DNA of 64,000 nt from Hirudinaria manillensis (Eukaryota; Annelida; Clitellata; Hirudinida; Hirudinidae), in NCBI GenBank assembly GCA_034509925.1, contig CM067530.1, forward strand, positions 1,534,001 to 1,598,000. Direction: 5' to 3'. Every line of letters begins with the position of its first letter. Position 1 is the first letter of the stretch. The notes under the pieces are model-generated. The model had not been told where the DNA came from and did no database searches. It worked only from the letters and a program-made list of their open reading frames with translations. Below are positions 18,447 through 64,000 of the stretch, in pieces. The translations under genes and the position numbers were made by a program.

Positions 18447-21400
18447 TTAAGCCAGGGTCTTCTGGATGTGGGAAGCACGATCCTGTGAATGAAACATTAA
18501 ATTGAATTATAAATAAATAGACGTCAGTGCTTTGAAAAGTCCTGAGATAAGGCAATGTAGTGTACCTGTCCGGATGTGTTGAAGAGCTGAGTGGTGATGT
18601 TCTGGCCAGTTCCCCAGTCGAGAATATCAACCTCGACATCGGAAGCTGTGGCATTGCTTGGCTTGGCTCCCTTCACCCACAACTAGATGGAACGAAAGAA
18701 AAATAATTTGTTTAAAATTAGATAAAAACTTTCTTTGGAATGAAACTATACTGTAGAATATATGTAATGTGTAAAGTTACTAGAATATGAACTGAAATCA
18801 TAGACAACCTTGATCTTCATGTGTGGGTCAATGCCGGCATCAGCCTTGAAGGTATAAACTGGAACATCCTTTCCATCGACCTTCCTTCTCAGGGTGAATC
18901 CGCCGAGTTCCTCCCTCTGTGGCGAGTTAAAATATTCAAAATAATTAATCAATTGATCATAATCTATATAATATTACATTGAATTGCTAAATACTGATTA
19001 AACGATGTCCGTACCCTCTTGCCGGTGTTTTCGAGAATGATGAATTTGCCATCTGGGGAGCATTCAGAAATGGAGACCGGTCCTCTGGCGTTCCTCTGGT
19101 AGCTGGTTCTACCACCGACGAGGGATGATGAGCCGTTTGAGGTGATCTTTCTCGAAAGGGATGTGGCTGTAAAATTCAAATAAAATGGTAAACTTAAATT
19201 TTCCAGCTCTTTAAGCTATAACTCATGTTTTTAGCTTTAAAAGCATCCACAGATTAAGAAAACCAGTAAACTCACAGCTGCTGAATCCAGTGGCAGATCC
19301 GTTGTATCCTTCTCCGTAGATACCGTCAGCGTAGGCTGAAGCGGCAGAGGCGGTAGCGCTGGCGTAGGCGTCAAACATGCTGTCGACGACTTGTTTAAGT
19401 CCGTCTCCATCCTGTTCACCCTCCAAGAGTTTCTTGTAGGTGGCGATTTCCTTTTCCAGGCTGAGCTTGGCATCCAGGAGTGCTTCCAGTTCCTTGGTGA
19501 TGGCGTCCATCTCTGCCTTCATGGTGACGATGTCGTTCTTTGTAGCTTCGAGGTCCTTCATGACTTCGATCTCTCTATCTTCCATTTCGTGTCTCAGCTC
19601 CTCCATTTCTCTCATAATCATATCGTTCTGCAAAATCGAAAATTGAGCATGTTAAGATTTATTAAACAACCAGACTAAAGAATTGCTTAACAGATTGAAA
19701 ATTAATTGCTTTAAATAACATAAAGATTCTTACTCTGCCTTCGAACTCCAAGACCTTGGTTCTGATTTCGTTGGTCTGCATCCTAATGCGGACAGATTCT
19801 TCTTTGCTTGTGGAAACAACGGCTGGTCTTGGCAGGTTGAGGGATTGTACCTGGAAACCAATTTAAAACAATTTAATGCAACTTATTTTTTATTTAGAAA
19901 TTTTGATTTCTAGAAATTCCTAAGTAAATTAATCGAAAGATTATCATTATACAGATTCAAGATTTCCAATTCCATATCAATTAATCAACAAACAAACAAT
20001 CAAACAATGGTTTACCTGCATGCTGTAGTTGAGGCTCATTTCGTTCTGGAGTTCGTCGATCTTCTCACCGTAATGCTCCTGGAGTTTCTTGAGTTCCATG
20101 CTCATCTCGCTCTTCCAGTATTCTCTGTTGCTTGCGGTGCTGTCGAAGTAAGCCTTAGCGGCCAACTCGCGAAGCTCCTGGAATGAATAATTATTTACTT
20201 CTTATTATTAATTCTACCGATTATTTGATTTATCTAGGTTTTTAAGTAACTGGTAAATTTATGGAGAGAGTTTTTCACGTTACGAACCTGCTCGTGCAAC
20301 TCCTTGATGAAGGCCAATTCTTCTTCAAGAGCCAGTCTTTTGGCTTCGGCGGCATCGTGTTCAGCAGCCTGGGCATCGAAGTCCTAGGGAAAAACATCCA
20401 TGAATTAAAAATTCGCAATTTGAAGTTAAAGTTTTCCTGTGAAATACAAGAATGTCTTCACTTACGGTTCTGGCCCTGTTGAGGTTCTCTTGGAGTTTGC
20501 TGATGATGGCTTTGTGGTATCTCTTGTCACCATCGAGGAGGTCACTGCGCAGACGCAGAAGGTGAACTTCGGATTCGATTTCAGCGATCTGTTGGATCTG
20601 CTTCTCGAGTTTGTCTCTGCTCTCGTCGACGGCAGCGTTGGCTTCGTCGAGTCTTTAGGACGAATGAATGGTGTTCAGTTATTAAGTGGCGTTGAAAGAG
20701 ATATCGTCATCGTAGTCGTCGTCATCGTTATAAAATCCATTTAGTTGCAAACTAGAATGTAGCATCCATTAATAATGTCATATTTCTCTCTCTCTTTCAT
20801 CATCATAATCTCTCGAGAGGAAATTCTCCTCTAAAAGGCGTCGTACAACATTCAGCTCGGTTGCAAAGCCTGCACTTATCGATTTTTCTTGCTTCACATG
20901 AGCAACGAATGCTATCAGCCAGTCCCAAAAATTAGGACAACCCTTTCGTTCGTATAATTTTCAGCATCGCAATCCGCTTAGAAATTTCAAATCGACTCAC
21001 TTTCTCCTCAAGTCATCGATCTTCTCTTCCATGGATGCAACCTGGATCTGGAGCTTCTGTGTGTCCTTTTCGCAGTCATCGAGCAGTCTCTTGACCTAAA
21101 GACGATGGGTATAAGACGACCGTGAAAAAGCAGTTCAATAATGCGCATCGATTGGGTAAATATTGTTAAAATTTCGCGCTAAAAACCGTATGGTAACTTT
21201 CCAATTAGACAAACGTCAAAAACGTCAAAAACAGGCAAACGATTAATTGCCACGAATTAGTTGGAAACTTATCCACCTGGTCGAGATCTGTCTGGTACAT
21301 GGTCTTGATGACTGTGGTTTGCTTTCCCCATCTGGATTTCAGGGTGTCCAATTCATCGGACAACTTTTTGTTTTGGGCCTCCAAGAAACGAACCTTCTCG

Positions 21401-21821
21401 ATGTAACCTGAGATGATTGAAATGTTGATTGATTTCGTTATTGATTGATTAAGTGAAGAATGCTATTGCATTAAGAGTTGACTTAATTTAATTAGATGAA
21501 ACTTAGAAGCATTAAAAATTGCAGAATTATTTACTAATGAATAAAACATTCAACTTCACAAATGATAAATTTACCTGCAAAGCGTTCGTTGAGGTCCTGC
21601 ATTTCTCTCTTCTCGCTCTTCCTCTGATCAGTGACAGAGGTTGCAGCGCCTCCAGCAACTCCACCGGCTCCGTAGACATTTCCGACGGACCTCGTCACAA
21701 CGGACCTGGAAGATACGTTGGTGAAGCCTCCTGGGATTGACCTCTGGATGAGCAGGTTCCTTGGCTGGATGCTGGGACGCACGTTCCTCTCGATTTCGGA
21801 GACGAAGCTTAAAGATTCCAT
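18447..21821 (-). CDS. Cytoplasmic intermediate filament protein with lamin tail domain
   Basis: Twelve exons with agreeing phases (21575-21821, 21277-21407, 21001-21095, 20466-20652, 20288-20383, 20016-20177, 19734-19850, 19276-19627, 19015-19166, 18809-18916, 18566-18682, 18447-18482) give 599 residues. A Ser/Arg/Gly-rich head (about 1-75) is followed by the coil 1A signature (NERFAGYIEKVRFLEAQN), a long coil 1B, coil 2 and the rod-end motif EIATYKKLLEGE. A Gly/Ala-rich linker leads to an Ig-fold lamin tail domain, with a TFKADAGIDPHMKIKLWVKG core. Counting between the matching points of coil 1B and vimentin gives 42 extra residues, as in lamins and protostome filaments. The protein should assemble into cytoplasmic filaments in epithelia or neurons. 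There is no nuclear-lamin CaaX box: the protein ends in KTLA. Confidence 0.95.
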
Positions 21822-21863
21822 TCTATGTTAGTCGTTGACTTCTCGGATGCAAAACTCCTGATC

Positions 21864-26279: not shown

Positions 26280-28678
<2,399 letters not shown>

Positions 28679-32006: not shown

Positions 32007-35575
<3,569 letters not shown>

Positions 35576-36487: not shown

Positions 36488-40552
<4,065 letters not shown>

Positions 40553-49100: not shown

Positions 49101-52100
49101 TAATGACGTCAAAGTTTAAAGTTTGTCTTGGCTTTTGAAGAATATGTTCATTTCCAGATTGAATGTTGTTGTAAATGTTTGTATGATCATGACTTCTTTT
49201 TGTATTTTGTATGCACAGCATTCGCTTTTTGGTGAGATGTTTTCAAGAGCAATGTTAACAATGGTTAAGTGAATTTTATGACTTTGAGTCTTGCACTAAC
49301 AAACATTGGAATTTGAATATTATTCACTAAGCATTGAGAGGTCAAGTCTTAGCAGTTTGGGTTATGATAACATAGACTGTAAGCGATTTCGGGAGACCCT
49401 TAGAAAATCGTTTGAAAACGACATTTTTCCCCACAACTTAATGTTATTTCGACTGTTATTAATCACAATTCCAGGTTCTTCATAGACGAAGAGAAGTTGT
49501 GTGACGAGGTACGAGCGCACCTGAACGTTTCAGGTGGAGAGAACGAAGACAAGGTCATCGTCAGACCCTACGAGCAGGTCGTTGAGGATTTGAAGGTTCT
49601 TGTGGCCAATGAAACTGGAAAGATATGGGTCAGTTTTATTTGTCCTACTCAGTGTGGTTTTTGATTGATTTAATAATTTGTCGGTGATGATAATTGTTAA
49701 TTTATCGTCATTTGTGAACCATTTATTTTGAACCTGGTCTGTTAATGCTTGAAGTTGGTCAATTTATCAGTTGTTAAAGTTACAAAGCTGTATCTTAAAT
49801 GTGATAAGTTCTTTTGTATAACCTTGTCCATTGTTTGTTGTGTGTGTCAGCTTGTATTGTTTGTTGTATGTGCCAGTTTGTAAGTCATCCAAATTGATGC
49901 AGGTATCTCCAATCACGAACCAAGCCATTTCACAAGTGGTTCCAAAAGTAAGCAGCATTGCATTTCAACAGGAACAATTTTGTTTTTGTTTTTTAAATTT
50001 GAATTTGCAGATCAAGTGAGATTGTTTTAAATTGTAAATTTTAAATATAATTTATTCATTTCAGAAAAATTAAATTAAAATTTATTTAATGGCATGCAGT
50101 ATTTACACTATAATATAGCAGTTGTATTTATGTTACACTTGTTGTTGTTGTTACCAGGAGAAGCTGCTAAAAGAATACTCACCAGTTGCAAAGGAGAAAA
50201 CAGTTAAAAATGAAGTGGAGATGCTAGGCATGAGCAACTGCCATGTAATTCACTGCATTTCTTGTTTCGTTTTTGTTACTTATTGCCCACGAAGAATAAT
50301 TCACTTTGATGAATTAATTTGTTTTTAAATAATTGTACATGGTTGCAAATGGCCAATCAAAAAACAGGAATAATTTCAAATTTTGTCTTTAGTTATTGAT
50401 AATGGAACAAATGTTGTTAAACTAAATTGTGTATCATCATCATCATATTATTATTATCGTTATTATTATTGTTATTATTACCTCTATTGCTATTATTATT
50501 ATTATTATGATTATTATTATTATTGTCATTATTATTTTATTATTATTGTTACTACATCACAGTTCTTGGAAAAGTAATAAGATTATTGTTGATCATAACT
50601 TTAAACTTCCCCATCAGATCAGAGATGCAGTGGCCCTTTGTGAGTTCTTCTCATGGTTTGAAAAGGAGGTACGAAGCAGGAATGTTACTGAAATTGAGGC
50701 TGCCAATTACTCAGAGGAATGCAGGAGGTAAACAAATCTGTTTTTGTCTTAATTTTATTAATTAATTGAATATTTATTGCTTTCATTCTCATGAGAGCAG
50801 AAGTAAGGTTGTTTGTCATTCTAAATTCTTGACATGAATTAGTATCTTATAATCGGCTAACTATTAATTAGGTGTTTATTTATTTATATTTTACTTGCCT
50901 TGATTACTTATTAACGATTTCATGTTTGAAGGAAGCAAGACCATTTTGTCAGTCTCAGTTTTGACACAATCTCTTCCACTGGTCCTGATGGTGCCATCAT
51001 ACACTACAAGTTATTATTATTATTGTTTTTTTTTTACCCCAAATTGTTATTATTTTTATCATAAAGTTAGTGTAATTGCTGAAAAGGATAATTTTTTAAC
51101 ATTCAATTCTTCAATCCTCAACTCAGACCAACTCCAGAAACAGACAAAGTGATTTCAGTTGATGAATTGTATCTCATTGATTCTGGAGCCCAGTATTTGT
51201 GAGTAATGAGAAACAGTTATTGGTATTAGAAAAGTTATTATAACACCTAATCATATTAAGCCAAAAGCATGGCCCTAAGTGATGGAGAATATTTTCAAAG
51301 CCATAGTAAATAAATTGGTTTTCATGTTAGCTGTATATTGAATGATATTGCTTCACCAGAGATGGTACCACGGATATCACGAGAACGGTGCACTTGGGGA
51401 CACCAACAGAATACGAGAAGGTATGTGCTTGCATTGAAATGCCCTGCCTTCTTTGAGTGATGGAATATCTTGATAATAAATATTAAGATATAAAATGTGT
51501 AAGTTAATTTATTTAAATGTATTATTCAAAGATATTTTATTGCTAAGTAATTCTAATCCAAATAATTATTGAAATTGTAATTTTAAATATGATTTCAGGA
51601 ATGTTTCACTGCAGTTCTTAGAGGTCACATAGCTTTGGACACAGCTGTCTTCCCAAATGAAACCAAAGGTCTGTTGACAACTTCCAAATAAGTTTCTTAT
51701 ATTTTCTGTACCTGAGGCCAAGTGGACTATATACGTTTATTAGCTAATTAGTTATAATTTTAATTAATACATCTTATAATAGGTTATGTTTTAATCACTT
51801 TAATCAAAGGAATTTACATCAATTGCTGAAATGTATTTGCCGCTCGTTCAGGCCGTGACTTTGTGAGAATGCGACGTGTGTTGCACTTGATCATGGGTCT
51901 TCTATTAAAACAACTAGCAATCCATTTGCAGGCATCTTCCTCGACAACTTCGCTCGACAACATCTTTGGAACCTCGGACTCGACTTCAGACACGGAACTG
52001 GACACGGAGTCGGATCCTTTCTCAATGTTCATGAAGGTTGGCAAACAAACTCGCATAAGTTACCTTGCATTATTGGCAGAAGGAGTTGCATTATATTATT

Positions 52101-57721: not shown

Positions 57722-59458
57722 ATTTTATAAAAATTGTCCATAAATTTAAGCTACTCCGTAATTTCTTTAAAACAATCCATCATATAAGAGTTAGCTAATT
57801 ACACGATATGTAATACATCAAAAAAATGAATTTTTATAAATGGCATCATTCACTAAGATAGTCTTATATTATTCGCAAAAGTACAACCATCAATAGTGAG
57901 CGACTCCATGTCCCAATATTATGTTTTTAAACAAATCATTCAATCATTCTACGTAGATACGATAACTATACTGCTCACAACAATCCCGGCTGATGTTGTT
58001 CAGCCTCAGAAATTTGTTTTGAATAAGAATCGCAACCGAATCAAGAGGCTCATGAATGACGGCCAAGCTCCTCTATTATAGGAGGGGCTTATTTTCATAA
58101 TTGTTTTAATCATTTATTATGAATATGTAATCATCTGTGTTATGTACGTTAAGCGAAAACACTTTCACATCAATAAATTCAATTTAAAAAGATAAACAGC
58201 AGATTAATGTTTGACTGTAACTAGTAAAGTGACTAATCCTCAAATGTATTAATTAGATATGGGCAAATTAGGTATTGACAAGGTTAAAGTCGGCTCAGGC
58301 TACAAAATAGCCATGGTTTAGTCGTTGAATATACATTAAAATTAGGAGGGCAAGGTCATTTTGGAAATTTGTTTATTTTCCGGGACGGAACAAGAAATGC
58401 ATGCTTTTTCGAGACAAAGATTATCTGAGACAAAGTCATCTCTAAGCAAGTGCCTCTCAACATAATTTCTGAAGGTATGTGAAATGTGTTCACTCCACTG
58501 AGCTTGGTTACAATTGCCCAGTAAAAATATCATGTTAAATTTCATCAAGCAAGCCTTGATTTATAAAAATGAATTTTTTTTTAAATTCTTCATTCTACAT
58601 TCAGTAATATTATTGGCCCAAATCAGTGCAACAATTTAAATGCAATGATTTGGCATGTACGTTCTTGTGAATAGTTAAATCTTATAATAAGTAGAAATTT
58701 AATCACGCTTTATCTCACTAATATCAGAACTTAATTTCCTAATCGGTCGATTGCTGTTTTTTTCTCTTTTGGCTAAAGTTTAACAAACTTTTGTTAGTAG
58801 TCCTAGAGGCCATTCGGTTTAGTTTCATAAATAAATATTAAAAAAACCCTTTATTTAGATAGAAGCAGGACATCAAAAATTATGGGTTAAGACGCTACTT
58901 AAATCTCACATGCATAACAGTGGTCAGCTAACAACAGCATACAAATCACGTGTTGAAGGTAAAAAAAAAGTAAAGGTAAATTAAAATTTAATTTCGATTT
59001 ATTATTTTTCGATAATAAGACGAAAGGTTTTCAATGCGATTTAAAAAAAAAAAAAGCTTACCCGAACAGAATCAAATAAAATATTAAGCAACTTTTTTCT
59101 ACAAAAAAATCAAATTAAATAATAATTTTGTACTAGATTTGTTTGATCAAATTTAATTATAGTCAAACCGAATTTAATTTTGAGAAATATAAAAAGGTGA
59201 GACCACGCCCCTACAAGGTTCATACAAAATCAACATGAGATTCAAAGAGGTTCACCAAGAAGATACCAAAACAAACGTAACGTGCATCTTTAATTTACAA
59301 CTATTTTGATTTTAATTAAATTAATCACAAATTTGATATTACCTAATTATGATAACAAGACGTACCTACAAGGGTTCAAACAAGAATTATAGTTATACTG
59401 CACTACAAACCAATCAAGTTAAAGTACTGCGAGAAGCCGATAGAATAATATACGTAAG
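57722..59458. other. Upstream region of the PGC-1-like gene; one doubtful small frame
   Basis: AT-rich. A plus-strand open frame from ATG 57908 (or 57896) to the stop at 58078 encodes about 57 residues with a hydrophobic first half and a basic tail (VLNKNRNRIKRLMNDGQAP). AATAAA follows near 58171. It could be a small protein or a terminal exon, but I do not recognise it. Nothing else is supported before the tRNA array. Confidence 0.3.
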
Positions 59459-59542
59459 GACGGAGTCGAACCGCCGACCTAAGGATGCCCGTCGCAATCA
59501 ACACACTACAGTCCTCCGCTCTACCAACTGAGCTATCACGGG
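59459..59542 (-). pseudogene. tRNA-Tyr copy truncated at its 3' end (array edge)
   Basis: The last copy in transcription order. It matches the other units up to the TPsiC arm. The 3' acceptor strand is replaced by unrelated sequence (TACGTAAG in place of TCCCGCGA on the plus strand), so the 5' acceptor strand CCCGTGA cannot pair. Not expected to give a functional tRNA. Confidence 0.85.
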
Positions 59543-59554
59543 AGTACAAGAAAA

Positions 59555-59582
59555 AACTCGTTTTCAAGCCTCAAAACGAGTT
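59555..59582. promoter_or_regulatory. Hairpin plus T-run preceding a tRNA-Tyr gene (first of at least 22)
   Basis: AACTCGTTTT and AAAACGAGTT form a perfect 10-bp inverted repeat around an 8-base loop. On the tRNA strand the second arm runs into TTTTTT and ends about 12 bases upstream of the mature 5' end. The same element recurs every 207 bp. It resembles a terminator or insulator between units, but its role is unknown. Confidence 0.6.
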
Positions 59583-59657
59583 CCTCGAGCCTCAAATAAG
59601 AGCAAAACGCCCACCTTACAATCGTACTCTTCCTTCGGACGGACCGTCAAAACTCCT

Positions 59658-59749
59658 TCCCGCGAGACGGAGTCGAACCGCCGACCTAAGGATGCCCGTC
59701 GCAATCAACACACTACAGTCCTCCGCTCTACCAACTGAGCTATCACGGG
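59658..59749 (-). tRNA. tRNA-Tyr (GTA), intron-containing
   Basis: Minus-strand gene of 92 bases. Acceptor CCCGTGA pairs with TCGCGGG, discriminator A. A box TAGCTCAGTTGG and B box GGTTCGACTCC are intact. The anticodon loop CTGTAGA carries GTA and is split by a 19-base intron (59694-59712) after position 37, the canonical site for eukaryotic tRNA-Tyr. A TTTT Pol III stop lies six bases after the gene. The mature tRNA would be 73 bases. Confidence 0.97.
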
Positions 59750-59864
59750 AGTACAAGAAAAAACTCGTTTTCAAGCCTCAAAACGAGTTCCTCGAGCCTC
59801 AAATAAGAGCAAAACGCCCACCTTACAATCGTACTCTTCCTTCGGACGGACCGTCAAAACTCCT

Positions 59865-59956
59865 TCCCGCGAGACGGAGTCGAACCGCCGACCTAAGGAT
59901 GCCCGTCGCAATCAACACACTACAGTCCTCCGCTCTACCAACTGAGCTATCACGGG
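59865..59956 (-). tRNA. tRNA-Tyr (GTA), intron-containing
   Basis: Same sequence as the 59658 copy. Confidence 0.97.
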
Positions 59957-60071
59957 AGTACAAGAAAAAACTCGTTTTCAAGCCTCAAAACGAGTTCCTC
60001 GAGCCTCAAATAAGAGCAAAACGCCCACCTTACAATCGTACTCTTCCTTCGGACGGACCGTCAAAACTCCT

Positions 60072-60163
60072 TCCCGCGAGACGGAGTCGAACCGCCGACC
60101 TAAGGATGCCCGTCGCAATCAACACACTACAGTCCTCCGCTCTACCAACTGAGCTATCACGGG
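60072..60163 (-). tRNA. tRNA-Tyr (GTA), intron-containing
   Basis: Same sequence as the 59658 copy. Confidence 0.97.
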
Positions 60164-60278
60164 AGTACAAGAAAAAACTCGTTTTCAAGCCTCAAAACGA
60201 GTTCCTCGAGCCTCAAATAAGAGCAAAACGCCCACCTTACAATCGTACTCTTCCTTCGGACGGACCGTCAAAACTCCT

Positions 60279-60370
60279 TCCCGCGAGACGGAGTCGAACC
60301 GCCGACCTAAGGATGCCCGTCGCAATCAACACACTACAGTCCTCCGCTCTACCAACTGAGCTATCACGGG
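60279..60370 (-). tRNA. tRNA-Tyr (GTA), intron-containing
   Basis: Same sequence as the 59658 copy. Confidence 0.97.
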
Positions 60371-60485
60371 AGTACAAGAAAAAACTCGTTTTCAAGCCTC
60401 AAAACGAGTTCCTCGAGCCTCAAATAAGAGCAAAACGCCCACCTTACAATCGTACTCTTCCTTCGGACGGACCGTCAAAACACCT

Positions 60486-60577
60486 TCCCGCGAGACGGAG
60501 TCGAACCGCCGACCTAAGGATGCCCGTCGCAATCAACACACTACAGTCCTCCGCTCTACCAACTGAGCTATCACGGG
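60486..60577 (-). tRNA. tRNA-Tyr (GTA), intron-containing
   Basis: tRNA identical to the 59658 copy; the 3' flank has CACCTT instead of CTCCTT. The TTTT terminator is kept. Confidence 0.97.
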
Positions 60578-60692
60578 AGTACAAGAAAAAACTCGTTTTC
60601 AAGCCTCAAAACGAGTTCCTCGAGCCTCTCCGAAGAACAAAACGCCCACCTTACAATCGTACTCTTCCTTCGGGCGGACCGTCAAAACTCCT

Positions 60693-60784
60693 TCCCGCGA
60701 GACGGAGTCGAACCGCCGACCTAAGGATGCCCGTCGCAATCAACACACTACAGTCCTCCGCTCTACCAACTGAGCTATCACGGG
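60693..60784 (-). tRNA. tRNA-Tyr (GTA), intron-containing
   Basis: tRNA identical to the 59658 copy; the 3' flank is of the TCCGAAGAAC type with GGGCGG. Confidence 0.97.
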
Positions 60785-60899
60785 AGTACAAGAAAAAACT
60801 CGTTTTCAAGCCTCAAAACGAGTTCCTCGAGCCTCAAATAAGAGCAAAACGCCCACCTTACAATCGTACTCTTCCTTCGGACGGACCGTCAAAACTCCT

Positions 60900-60991
60900 T
60901 CCCGCGAGACGGAGTCGAACCGCCGACCTAAGGATGCCCGTCGCAATCAACACACTACAGTCCTCCGCTCTACCAACTGAGCTATCACGGG
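60900..60991 (-). tRNA. tRNA-Tyr (GTA), intron-containing
   Basis: Same sequence as the 59658 copy. Confidence 0.97.
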
Positions 60992-61106
60992 AGTACAAGA
61001 AAAAACTCGTTTTCAAGCCTCAAAACGAGTTCCTCGAGCCTCTCCGAAGAACAAAACGCCCACCTTACAATCGTACTCTTCCTTCGGACGGACCGTCAAA
61101 ACTCCT

Positions 61107-61198
61107 TCCCGCGAGACGGAGTCGAACCGCCGACCTAAGGATGCCCGTCGCAATCAACACACTACAGTCCTCCGCTCTACCAACTGAGCTATCACGGG
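61107..61198 (-). tRNA. tRNA-Tyr (GTA), intron-containing
   Basis: tRNA identical to the 59658 copy; 3' flank of the TCCGAAGAAC type. Confidence 0.97.
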
Positions 61199-61313
61199 AG
61201 TACAAGAAAAAACTCGTTTTCAAGCCTCAAAACGAGTTCCTCGAGCCTCAAATAAGAGCAAAACGCCCACCTTACAATCGTACTCTTCCTTCGGACGGAC
61301 CGTCAAAACTCCT

Positions 61314-61405
61314 TCCCGCGAGACGGAGTCGAACCGCCGACCTAAGGATGCCCGTCGCAATCAACACACTACAGTCCTCCGCTCTACCAACTGAGCTATC
61401 ACGGG
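61314..61405 (-). tRNA. tRNA-Tyr (GTA), intron-containing
   Basis: Same sequence as the 59658 copy. Confidence 0.97.
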
Positions 61406-61520
61406 AGTACAAGAAAAAACTCGTTTTCAAGCCTCAAAACGAGTTCCTCGAGCCTCAAATAAGAGCAAAACGCCCACCTTACAATCGTACTCTTCCTTCG
61501 GACGGACCGTCAAAACTCCT

Positions 61521-61612
61521 TCCCGCGAGACGGAGTCGAACCGCCGACCTAAGGATGCCCGTCGCAATCAACACACTACAGTCCTCCGCTCTACCAACTG
61601 AGCTATCACGGG
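61521..61612 (-). tRNA. tRNA-Tyr (GTA), intron-containing
   Basis: Same sequence as the 59658 copy. Confidence 0.97.
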
Positions 61613-61727
61613 AGTACAAGAAAAAACTCGTTTTCAAGCCTCAAAACGAGTTCCTCGAGCCTCAAATAAGAGCAAAACGCCCACCTTACAATCGTACTCT
61701 TCCTTCGGACGGACCGTCAAAACTCCT

Positions 61728-61819
61728 TCCCGCGAGACGGAGTCGAACCGCCGACCTAAGGATGCCCGTCGCAATCAACACACTACAGTCCTCCGCTCTA
61801 CCAACTGAGCTATCACGGG
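61728..61819 (-). tRNA. tRNA-Tyr (GTA), intron-containing
   Basis: Same sequence as the 59658 copy. Confidence 0.97.
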
Positions 61820-61934
61820 AGTACAAGAAAAAACTCGTTTTCAAGCCTCAAAACGAGTTCCTCGAGCCTCAAATAAGAGCAAAACGCCCACCTTACAATC
61901 GTACTCTTCCTTCGGGCGGACCGTCAAAACTCCT

Positions 61935-62026
61935 TCCCGCGAGACGGAGTCGAACCGCCGACCTAAGGATGCCCGTCGCAATCAACACACTACAGTCCTC
62001 CGCTCTACCAACTGAGCTATCACGGG
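61935..62026 (-). tRNA. tRNA-Tyr (GTA), intron-containing
   Basis: tRNA identical to the 59658 copy; the 3' flank has GGGCGG. Confidence 0.97.
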
Positions 62027-62141
62027 AGTACAAGAAAAAACTCGTTTTCAAGCCTCAAAACGAGTTCCTCGAGCCTCAAATAAGAGCAAAACGCCCACCT
62101 TACAATCGTACTCTTCCTTCGGACGGACCGTCAAAACTCCT

Positions 62142-62233
62142 TCCCGCGAGACGGAGTCGAACCGCCGACCTAAGGATGCCCGTCGCAATCAACACACTAC
62201 AGTCCTCCGCTCTACCAACTGAGCTATCACGGG
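62142..62233 (-). tRNA. tRNA-Tyr (GTA), intron-containing
   Basis: Same sequence as the 59658 copy. Confidence 0.97.
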
Positions 62234-62348
62234 AGTACAAGAAAAAACTCGTTTTCAAGCCTCAAAACGAGTTCCTCGAGCCTCTCCGAAGAACAAAACG
62301 CCCACCTTACAATCGTACTCTTCCTTCGGACGGACCGTCAAAACTCCT

Positions 62349-62440
62349 TCCCGCGAGACGGAGTCGAACCGCCGACCTAAGGATGCCCGTCGCAATCAAC
62401 ACACTACAGTCCTCCGCTCTACCAACTGAGCTATCACGGG
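62349..62440 (-). tRNA. tRNA-Tyr (GTA), intron-containing
   Basis: tRNA identical to the 59658 copy; 3' flank of the TCCGAAGAAC type. Confidence 0.97.
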
Positions 62441-62555
62441 AGTACAAGAAAAAACTCGTTTTCAAGCCTCAAAACGAGTTCCTCGAGCCTCAAATAAGAG
62501 CAAAACGCCCACCTTACAATCGTACTCTTCCTTCGGACGGACCGTCAAAACTCCT

Positions 62556-62647
62556 TCCCGCGAGACGGAGTCGAACCGCCGACCTAAGGATGCCCGTCGC
62601 AATCAACACACTACAGTCCTCCGCTCTACCAACTGAGCTATCACGGG
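62556..62647 (-). tRNA. tRNA-Tyr (GTA), intron-containing
   Basis: Same sequence as the 59658 copy. Confidence 0.97.
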
Positions 62648-62762
62648 AGTACAAGAAAAAACTCGTTTTCAAGCCTCAAAACGAGTTCCTCGAGCCTCAA
62701 ATAAGAGCAAAACGCCCACCTTACAATCGTACTCTTCCTTCGGACGGACCGTCAAAACTCCT

Positions 62763-62854
62763 TCCCGCGAGACGGAGTCGAACCGCCGACCTAAGGATGC
62801 CCGTCGCAATCAACACACTACAGTCCTCCGCTCTACCAACTGAGCTATCACGGG
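62763..62854 (-). tRNA. tRNA-Tyr (GTA), intron-containing
   Basis: Same sequence as the 59658 copy. Confidence 0.97.
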
Positions 62855-62969
62855 AGTACAAGAAAAAACTCGTTTTCAAGCCTCAAAACGAGTTCCTCGA
62901 GCCTCAAATAAGAGCAAAACGCCCACCTTACAATCGTACTCTTCCTTCGGGCGGACCGTCAAAACTCCT

Positions 62970-63061
62970 TCCCGCGAGACGGAGTCGAACCGCCGACCTA
63001 AGGATGCCCGTCGCAATCAACACACTACAGTCCTCCGCTCTACCAACTGAGCTATCGCGGG
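62970..63061 (-). tRNA. tRNA-Tyr (GTA), intron-containing, acceptor variant
   Basis: The only complete copy with a change inside the tRNA. The 5' acceptor strand is CCCGCGA instead of CCCGTGA, which turns a T-G wobble pair into C-G. Fully foldable; the 3' flank has GGGCGG. Confidence 0.96.
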
Positions 63062-63176
63062 AGTACAAGAAAAAACTCGTTTTCAAGCCTCAAAACGAGT
63101 TCCTCGAGCCTCTCCGAAGAACAAAACGCCCACCTTACAATCGTACTCTTCCTTCGGACGGACCGTCAAAACTCCT

Positions 63177-63268
63177 TCCCGCGAGACGGAGTCGAACCGC
63201 CGACCTAAGGATGCCCGTCGCAATCAACACACTACAGTCCTCCGCTCTACCAACTGAGCTATCACGGG
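63177..63268 (-). tRNA. tRNA-Tyr (GTA), intron-containing
   Basis: tRNA identical to the 59658 copy; 3' flank of the TCCGAAGAAC type. Confidence 0.97.
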
Positions 63269-63383
63269 AGTACAAGAAAAAACTCGTTTTCAAGCCTCAA
63301 AACGAGTTCCTCGAGCCTCAAATAAGAGCAAAACGCCCACCTTACAATCGTACTCTTCCTTCGGACGGACCGTCAAAACACCT

Positions 63384-63475
63384 TCCCGCGAGACGGAGTC
63401 GAACCGCCGACCTAAGGATGCCCGTCGCAATCAACACACTACAGTCCTCCGCTCTACCAACTGAGCTATCACGGG
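63384..63475 (-). tRNA. tRNA-Tyr (GTA), intron-containing
   Basis: tRNA identical to the 59658 copy; the 3' flank has CACCTT, as at 60486. Confidence 0.97.
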
Positions 63476-63590
63476 AGTACAAGAAAAAACTCGTTTTCAA
63501 GCCTCAAAACGAGTTCCTCGAGCCTCTCCGAAGAACAAAACGCCCACCTTACAATCGTACTCTTCCTTCGGGCGGACCGTCAAAACTCCT

Positions 63591-63682
63591 TCCCGCGAGA
63601 CGGAGTCGAACCGCCGACCTAAGGATGCCCGTCGCAATCAACACACTACAGTCCTCCGCTCTACCAACTGAGCTATCACGGG
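63591..63682 (-). tRNA. tRNA-Tyr (GTA), intron-containing
   Basis: tRNA identical to the 59658 copy; 3' flank of the TCCGAAGAAC type with GGGCGG, as at 60693. Confidence 0.97.
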
Positions 63683-63797
63683 AGTACAAGAAAAAACTCG
63701 TTTTCAAGCCTCAAAACGAGTTCCTCGAGCCTCAAATAAGAGCAAAACGCCCACCTTACAATCGTACTCTTCCTTCGGACGGACCGTCAAAACTCCT

Positions 63798-63889
63798 TCC
63801 CGCGAGACGGAGTCGAACCGCCGACCTAAGGATGCCCGTCGCAATCAACACACTACAGTCCTCCGCTCTACCAACTGAGCTATCACGGG
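63798..63889 (-). tRNA. tRNA-Tyr (GTA), intron-containing
   Basis: Last complete copy in the window, same sequence as the 59658 copy. The following unit is cut by the window end before its tRNA. Confidence 0.97.
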
Positions 63890-64000
63890 AGTACAAGAAA
63901 AAACTCGTTTTCAAGCCTCAAAACGAGTTCCTCGAGCCTCTCCGAAGAACAAAACGCCCACCTTACAATCGTACTCTTCCTTCGGACGGACCGTCAAAAC

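Follow-up and report, generated by a model that had tools for sequence, protein, structure and literature searches.

The last 4.5 kb of a 64,000-nucleotide stretch of the genome of the leech Hirudinaria manillensis (hereafter the window; C5:1534001-1598000 of a 148.43-Mb genome in 23 contigs) carries the beginning of a long tandem array of transfer RNA (tRNA) genes for tyrosine. The full array spans 43.8 kb of contig C5 (C5:1593459-1637272) and contains about 210 tRNA-Tyr genes, of which the window covers a tenth. It is one of at least seven such arrays; in the seven that could be read, 12 anticodons for 10 amino acids are repeated in units of one to three genes. We put the probability at about 0.78 that the array is real, consists of working tRNA-Tyr genes, and belongs to a set of tRNA tandem arrays distributed across the leech chromosomes.

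In the window, the array occupies positions 59459..64000 and its genes are all on the minus strand. Tandem Repeats Finder (TRF) reported it as a single array with a period of 207 bp, 21.9 copies, 98% matches, 0 indels, and a score of 8825, and the sequence places the junction between array and flank at 59458/59459. ARAGORN found 21 complete tRNA-Tyr(GTA) genes, whereas the Rfam family RF00005 gave 22 matches. The additional match is a gene copy truncated by the array edge (59459..59542), which lacks its last 8 bases and reached only 36.1 bits (Rfam match 59452-59540). The first complete gene is 92 nt long and lies at 59658..59749. The remaining complete genes, found by both programs, start at 59865, 60072, 60279, 60486, 60693, 60900, 61107, 61314, 61521, 61728, 61935, 62142, 62349, 62556, 62763, 62970, 63177, 63384, 63591, and 63798. 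In other words, gene starts are exactly 207 bp apart. Twenty of the 21 complete genes have an identical sequence, and the only one with a substitution (62970..63061) differs by a single base. This T5-to-C change creates a C-G pair and strengthens the acceptor stem; all 21 genes match RF00005 as a cloverleaf with GTA, at 59.2 bits for the copy at 62970 and 57.0 bits for each of the others. Chance is excluded as an explanation of the array because of the TRF score and because the 207-bp unit was found again in the same genome with E-values as low as 8e-103. Thus, what an earlier note on this stretch had read from the sequence is confirmed for the number of copies (at least 22), for the 20 identical genes and the one with a substitution, and for an array that leaves the window.

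The structure of the repeated gene is that of an intron-containing tRNA-Tyr, as had also been claimed. Its 92 nt consist of 73 mature positions and a 19-nt intron, and the acceptor strand reads CCCGTGA. Sequence and fold together give a complete cloverleaf with a C1-G72 pair, A73, and the intron after position 37. C1-G72 and A73 are features which we take to be identity rules of tRNA-Tyr. In the first complete gene, the anticodon GTA (positions 34-36) is found at 59714..59716 on the minus strand by sequence, hand numbering, and fold. The intron of the same gene is placed at 59694..59712 on the minus strand, and its exact splice ends would be these because the canonical site of a tRNA intron is 37/38. 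A TTTT run, a likely RNA polymerase III terminator, lies 6-9 nt beyond the 3' end of the gene (59649..59652, minus strand). The spacer between the first complete gene and the next (59750..59864) is 115 bases long, and its guanine-plus-cytosine (GC) content is 45%, compared to 30% in the 2 kb to the left of the array. By eye, a 9-bp inverted repeat with an 8-nt loop (ACTCGTTTT-CAAGCCTC-AAAACGAGT) was recognized 14-39 bases upstream of the gene (59763..59788), and no inverted repeat like it was seen when the 60 bases preceding each gene of the other arrays were inspected in the same way.

The array in the window can also be read as protein. A stop-free frame of 1514 aa runs on the plus strand from 59458 to 63999, antisense to the window genes, and five Pfam families match it. 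This frame stays open across the window since the 207-bp period is divisible by 3 and corresponds to 69 codons. A coding repeat on the plus strand was rejected, as 173-254 stops interrupt each of the three frames once the whole array is read, and an open frame also appeared in 23% of spacer shuffles. The Pfam matches were taken as spurious by-products.

The full extent of the Tyr array was determined on C5:1593001-1653000, taken as six stretches; 5 kb of this region, outside the array, consists of N. A BLAST search with the gene gave 212 matches, comprising 207 full-length matches, 3 that were nearly full length, and 2 truncated by the ends of the array. On both sides the unit gives way to AT-rich sequence. 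The earlier note had described an exact 207-bp unit with no indels. This holds in the window but not beyond it: over the whole array, 156 of the 211 intervals are exactly 207 bp and the others range from 201 to 236 bp. Nor are the spacers fully uniform, since in the window they occur in two main forms (CAAATAAGAG and TCCGAAGAAC) with a few single-base variants; neither these forms nor the truncation of the first copy by the array edge is mentioned in the earlier note. In a substitution-only search of the whole array, 176 of 200 genes were identical, and the minor gene variants include forms changed at gene positions 5 or 90. The view of a homogeneous, amplified eukaryotic tandem array in which homogenisation is likely is supported. 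Substitutions per site and copy were approximately threefold lower in the gene (0.0039) than in the spacer (0.0121).

Does the leech have tRNA-Tyr genes outside of the array? An exact core of the Tyr gene gave 0 forward and 200 reverse matches genome-wide. A check for genes elsewhere had been recommended in the earlier note, and all 200 matches lay inside the array. An exact core overlooks diverged genes, which applies to the core searches of every isotype. Because 200/200 genome-wide matches fall inside, the array is probably the only source of tRNA-Tyr in the genome, and for that reason at least part of it must probably be expressed.

The Tyr array is not alone. Core patterns of other tRNAs were counted genome-wide, and the genes behind them were identified by reading stretches or loci. 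The Tyr array on C5, with its unit of 207 bp, is accompanied by two arrays on C1. One repeats Thr-AGT and Leu-CAG in a 585-bp unit (at least 65 units, from 63 Thr genes and 2 more), and the other repeats Gly-TCC in a unit of ~293 bp (at least 88 B-box core matches, with four genes read as Gly). C8 carries Asp-GTC with Asn-GTT on the other strand in a unit of exactly 499 bp (78 of 78 Asp matches), and C6 carries initiator Met in a unit of exactly 185 bp (80 of 83 matches). Val-AAC, Glu-CTC, and Val-CAC share a ~683-bp unit on C11 (74 of 76 Glu-CTC matches), and Phe-GAA and Glu-TTC a ~400-bp unit on C2 (171 Phe matches, 99 of the 100 listed lying in the array). Evidence for the partner genes (Asn, Val, Leu, and Glu-TTC) comes from the stretches or loci that were read rather than from counts along whole arrays. 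There are also signs of an eighth array, for Lys-CTT, with at least 4 core matches in a repeated unit of ~331 bp. The B-box core GGTTCGANTCC occurred 1,969 times, compared to 88 times for a reversed control. A first look had given 10,475 tRNA candidates, of which 63 were scored, and this figure was not taken as a count. The central part of the Gly-TCC array (C1:3379000-3394000) has irregularly spaced core matches, ~300 to 1,860 bp apart, as if consensus quality falls or copies decay there.

Dispersed exact-core copies are few. Their numbers were 0 of 200 for Tyr, 0 of 78 for Asp, 3 of 83 for initiator Met, and 2 of 76 for Glu-CTC, and one dispersed Phe copy was found among the 100 matches listed of 171. 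Six dispersed copies are thus known, five of which were read (two of the three for initiator Met). Of the 12 genes examined, 10 are followed by a run of T4 or longer in the next 30 nt. The arrays sit at varied places on six contigs; Phe/Glu begins ~200 kb from a contig end, and the others lie further in. By our own arithmetic, the located parts of the seven arrays total ~0.26 Mb, so that at least about 0.2% of the genome is arrayed in this way.

In 7/7 arrays, spacer GC is 45-57% compared to 29-36% in the left flanks, and the CpG ratio of the spacers is above that of the flank. The five dispersed copies that were read have AT-rich flanks (20-38% GC). A regulatory element common to the spacers was rejected, since across the seven arrays only matches of 11-21 bases were found and several of these are letters in or near tRNA genes. 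Because units of different arrays have only these short matches in common, each array seems, from its sequence, to have arisen separately and then to have spread one unit. The simplest reading of GC-rich spacers next to AT-rich flanks is GC-biased repair during frequent recombination between units; the GC excess suggests homogenisation by GC-biased gene conversion.

These observations lead to a model of how the Tyr array is used and maintained. tRNA genes carry internal promoter boxes. RNA polymerase III would transcribe each Tyr unit singly, because each gene has its internal promoter and a T-run terminator, and the usual tRNA splicing would take the 19-nt intron out of the transcripts. Concerted evolution, through unequal exchange and gene conversion among the units, would keep the copies alike, and a GC bias in conversion would lift the GC of the spacers above that of the adjoining DNA.

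Several observations weigh against a real array of working genes within a wider set, or against parts of it. One linked five-site variant supplies nearly half of the spacer substitutions, and once it is excluded the contrast between gene and spacer drops below twofold (own arithmetic). Singleton units and units of odd length crowd the middle of the array (units 100-179). In bins of 20 units, the singleton units number 12, 10, 7, and 8 over this region, compared to 2 and 0 in the two bins at the start of the array and 1 among its final 11 units. The 43.8-kb array also exceeds the mean read of 18.73 kb reported for the assembly (PMC10671345), and the mid-array singletons look like a weaker consensus where reads miss the flanks. 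Both the copy number and the inner order of units are provisional, because the array outruns the reads and its middle is rich in singleton and odd-length units. The published assembly is described as PacBio HiFi with Hi-C, with 22 scaffolds, 13 chromosomes, and a mitochondrial genome, and its 148.59 Mb differ slightly from the 148.43 Mb found here (PMC10671345). In the genome, the Pfam family PF16915 (erythrocruorin linker domain), which is not known outside annelids, matches seven places above its cut-off and an eighth below it; the 14 controls of this search are prokaryotes and have no bearing on specificity, and one linker-domain fragment had no match in the PDB. Duplicated blocks in the variant order, which would have pointed directly to unequal exchange, were rejected as no more than chance because 120 of 1000 shuffles reached the observed value. 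Beyond the Tyr array, the Phe and initiator Met genes have no T4 in the 30 nt downstream, and core patterns for His and Trp, which may not suit the species, gave 0 matches in the genome.

Are all of these copies working genes? It is possible, though on balance unlikely, that most Tyr copies are silent. They would then form a tRNA-derived satellite in closed chromatin with few active copies, whose homogeneity comes from recombination alone. The authors of a study of Entamoeba consider many of its arrayed copies possibly inactive (PMC2652664), and the GC of the leech spacers indicates recombination as a main force. However, the identity of 176 of 200 genes and the lower variability of gene sites compared to spacer sites speak against this, and not all copies can be silent because the exact core found no other Tyr source. 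A role of the array in chromatin (a possibility raised in the earlier note), as an insulator, or in nuclear organisation, instead of tRNA supply, is improbable. Other roles of this kind are known for tRNA genes, and a human tRNA variable number tandem repeat has been proposed as a boundary element (PMC4041453). Against a role of this kind in the leech stand the spacers of the seven arrays, with their short common matches several of which fall in or near tRNA genes, and the varied places of the arrays over six contigs, only Phe/Glu lying ~200 kb from a contig end.

The earlier note had also suggested that the array may supply a high demand for tyrosine. Such a demand might come, for example, from secreted or cuticle proteins. 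The Tyr array does have the most units counted here, but at least 11 other anticodons are organised alike in six other arrays, with 171 matches for Phe. A specific demand for tyrosine is unsupported because of this shared organisation and is very improbable as the cause of the amplification. A published codon table (PMC6050667) compares synonymous codons of each amino acid with one another, which has no bearing on such a demand. The explanation that we regard as least probable is an assembly artefact, in which a short array was expanded or misassembled. It would fit an array longer than the reported reads, an interior noisier than the edges, and the Merqury quality score of 33.53 reported for the assembly (PMC10671345). 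Yet by our own arithmetic ~90 units would fit into a single read of average reported length, variant units are dispersed along the array, and both edges pass into AT-rich DNA without the unit. Furthermore, seven arrays with unrelated units give the same picture, and the leech Hirudo verbana has been annotated with 5,709 tRNA genes (PMC12820476). The preferred reading remains that the array is real and its tRNA-Tyr genes work, as one among several tRNA arrays.

The rest of the window contains several protein-coding features. An intermediate filament gene lies on the minus strand at 18746-21827; one exon matches Pfam Filament, two more frames have no Pfam match, and other exons and a lamin-type tail were recognized by eye. 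A C2H2 zinc-finger gene with at least 2 exons (26280-28145, minus strand), GFI1-like by eye, is adjoined by a 400-bp AT microsatellite (26556-26959, TRF). Two near-identical exons with an alpha-amylase domain, 35177-35389 and 40154-40366, lie ~5 kb apart on the minus strand. They suggest that a maltase or SLC3-like gene, named by eye, was duplicated in tandem. An exon at 49416-49664 on the plus strand probably belongs to an aminopeptidase gene because it has a creatinase/prolidase N-terminal domain.

How general is the arrangement in leeches? We lean slightly towards the view that essentially the whole nuclear tRNA complement of leeches lies in chromosome-specific arrays whose spacers are unrelated, and that GC-biased conversion has homogenised each array and raised it to an island of 52-57% GC in ~35% GC DNA. 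This would be an independently evolved, Entamoeba-like organisation in a bilaterian. With a similarly slight preference, it would have been hidden so far because assembly reports state tRNA totals at most. Among the matches listed in the open-licence literature, no report of tRNA arrays in leeches was found. The totals reported for members of the same subclass are 5,709 for Hirudo verbana (as cited above), 1,308 for Dinobdella ferox (PMC10494388), and 429 for a draft of Hirudo medicinalis (PMC7303139). High totals would fit hidden arrays, and the arrays described here suggest that the Hirudo medicinalis figure is far too low.

tRNA arrays of this kind occur in unrelated lineages and have no agreed function. 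With its sequenced relatives (Hirudo, Whitmania, Dinobdella, and Helobdella), the leech offers a bilaterian in which the age of the arrays, the conservation of units and partners, and the activity of copies can be addressed. GC-biased gene conversion has a natural test in the GC contrast at seven arrays with unrelated spacers, set against the AT-rich flanks of dispersed copies.

A close likeness is to Entamoeba histolytica, in which almost all tRNA genes are reported to be arrayed, in 25 kinds of unit (Tawari et al., PMC2652664). The two share near-uniform arrayed tRNA copies and few dispersed genes, with Entamoeba units holding up to five genes according to the same study. They differ in that the leech is an animal whose spacers are richer in GC than the flanks, and in that its arrays make up near 0.2% of the genome as a lower bound, whereas those of Entamoeba are reported at >10% (PMC2652664). 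Short tandem repeats between the genes are described for just two species, E. histolytica and E. dispar, and for none of the other Entamoeba species (PMC2652664). In the leech, there are none between the Tyr genes that fall within the window, where TRF gives only the 207-bp period. Such repeats do not define this kind of array because other Entamoeba species have none. In the cnidarian Hydractinia, tandem arrays of tRNA and other non-coding RNA genes have the same architecture as in the leech (PMC11067881). What the leech shares with the Entamoeba and Hydractinia type is the head-to-tail unit of gene and spacer in tens to hundreds of near-identical copies. The oomycete Phytophthora infestans, of unrelated origin, likewise has 1-3 tRNA genes per unit; about two-thirds of its families are reported to lie on a single chromosome, with 271 Cys genes in a 513-nt unit as one example (PMC9584435). 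Large clusters of tRNA genes are also reported in the animals Nematostella, zebrafish, and stickleback, but those of Nematostella and zebrafish are mostly heterogeneous pairs (PMC2888827). The leech arrays are thus a further case of an arrangement already described in some amoebae, a hydroid, and a water mould.

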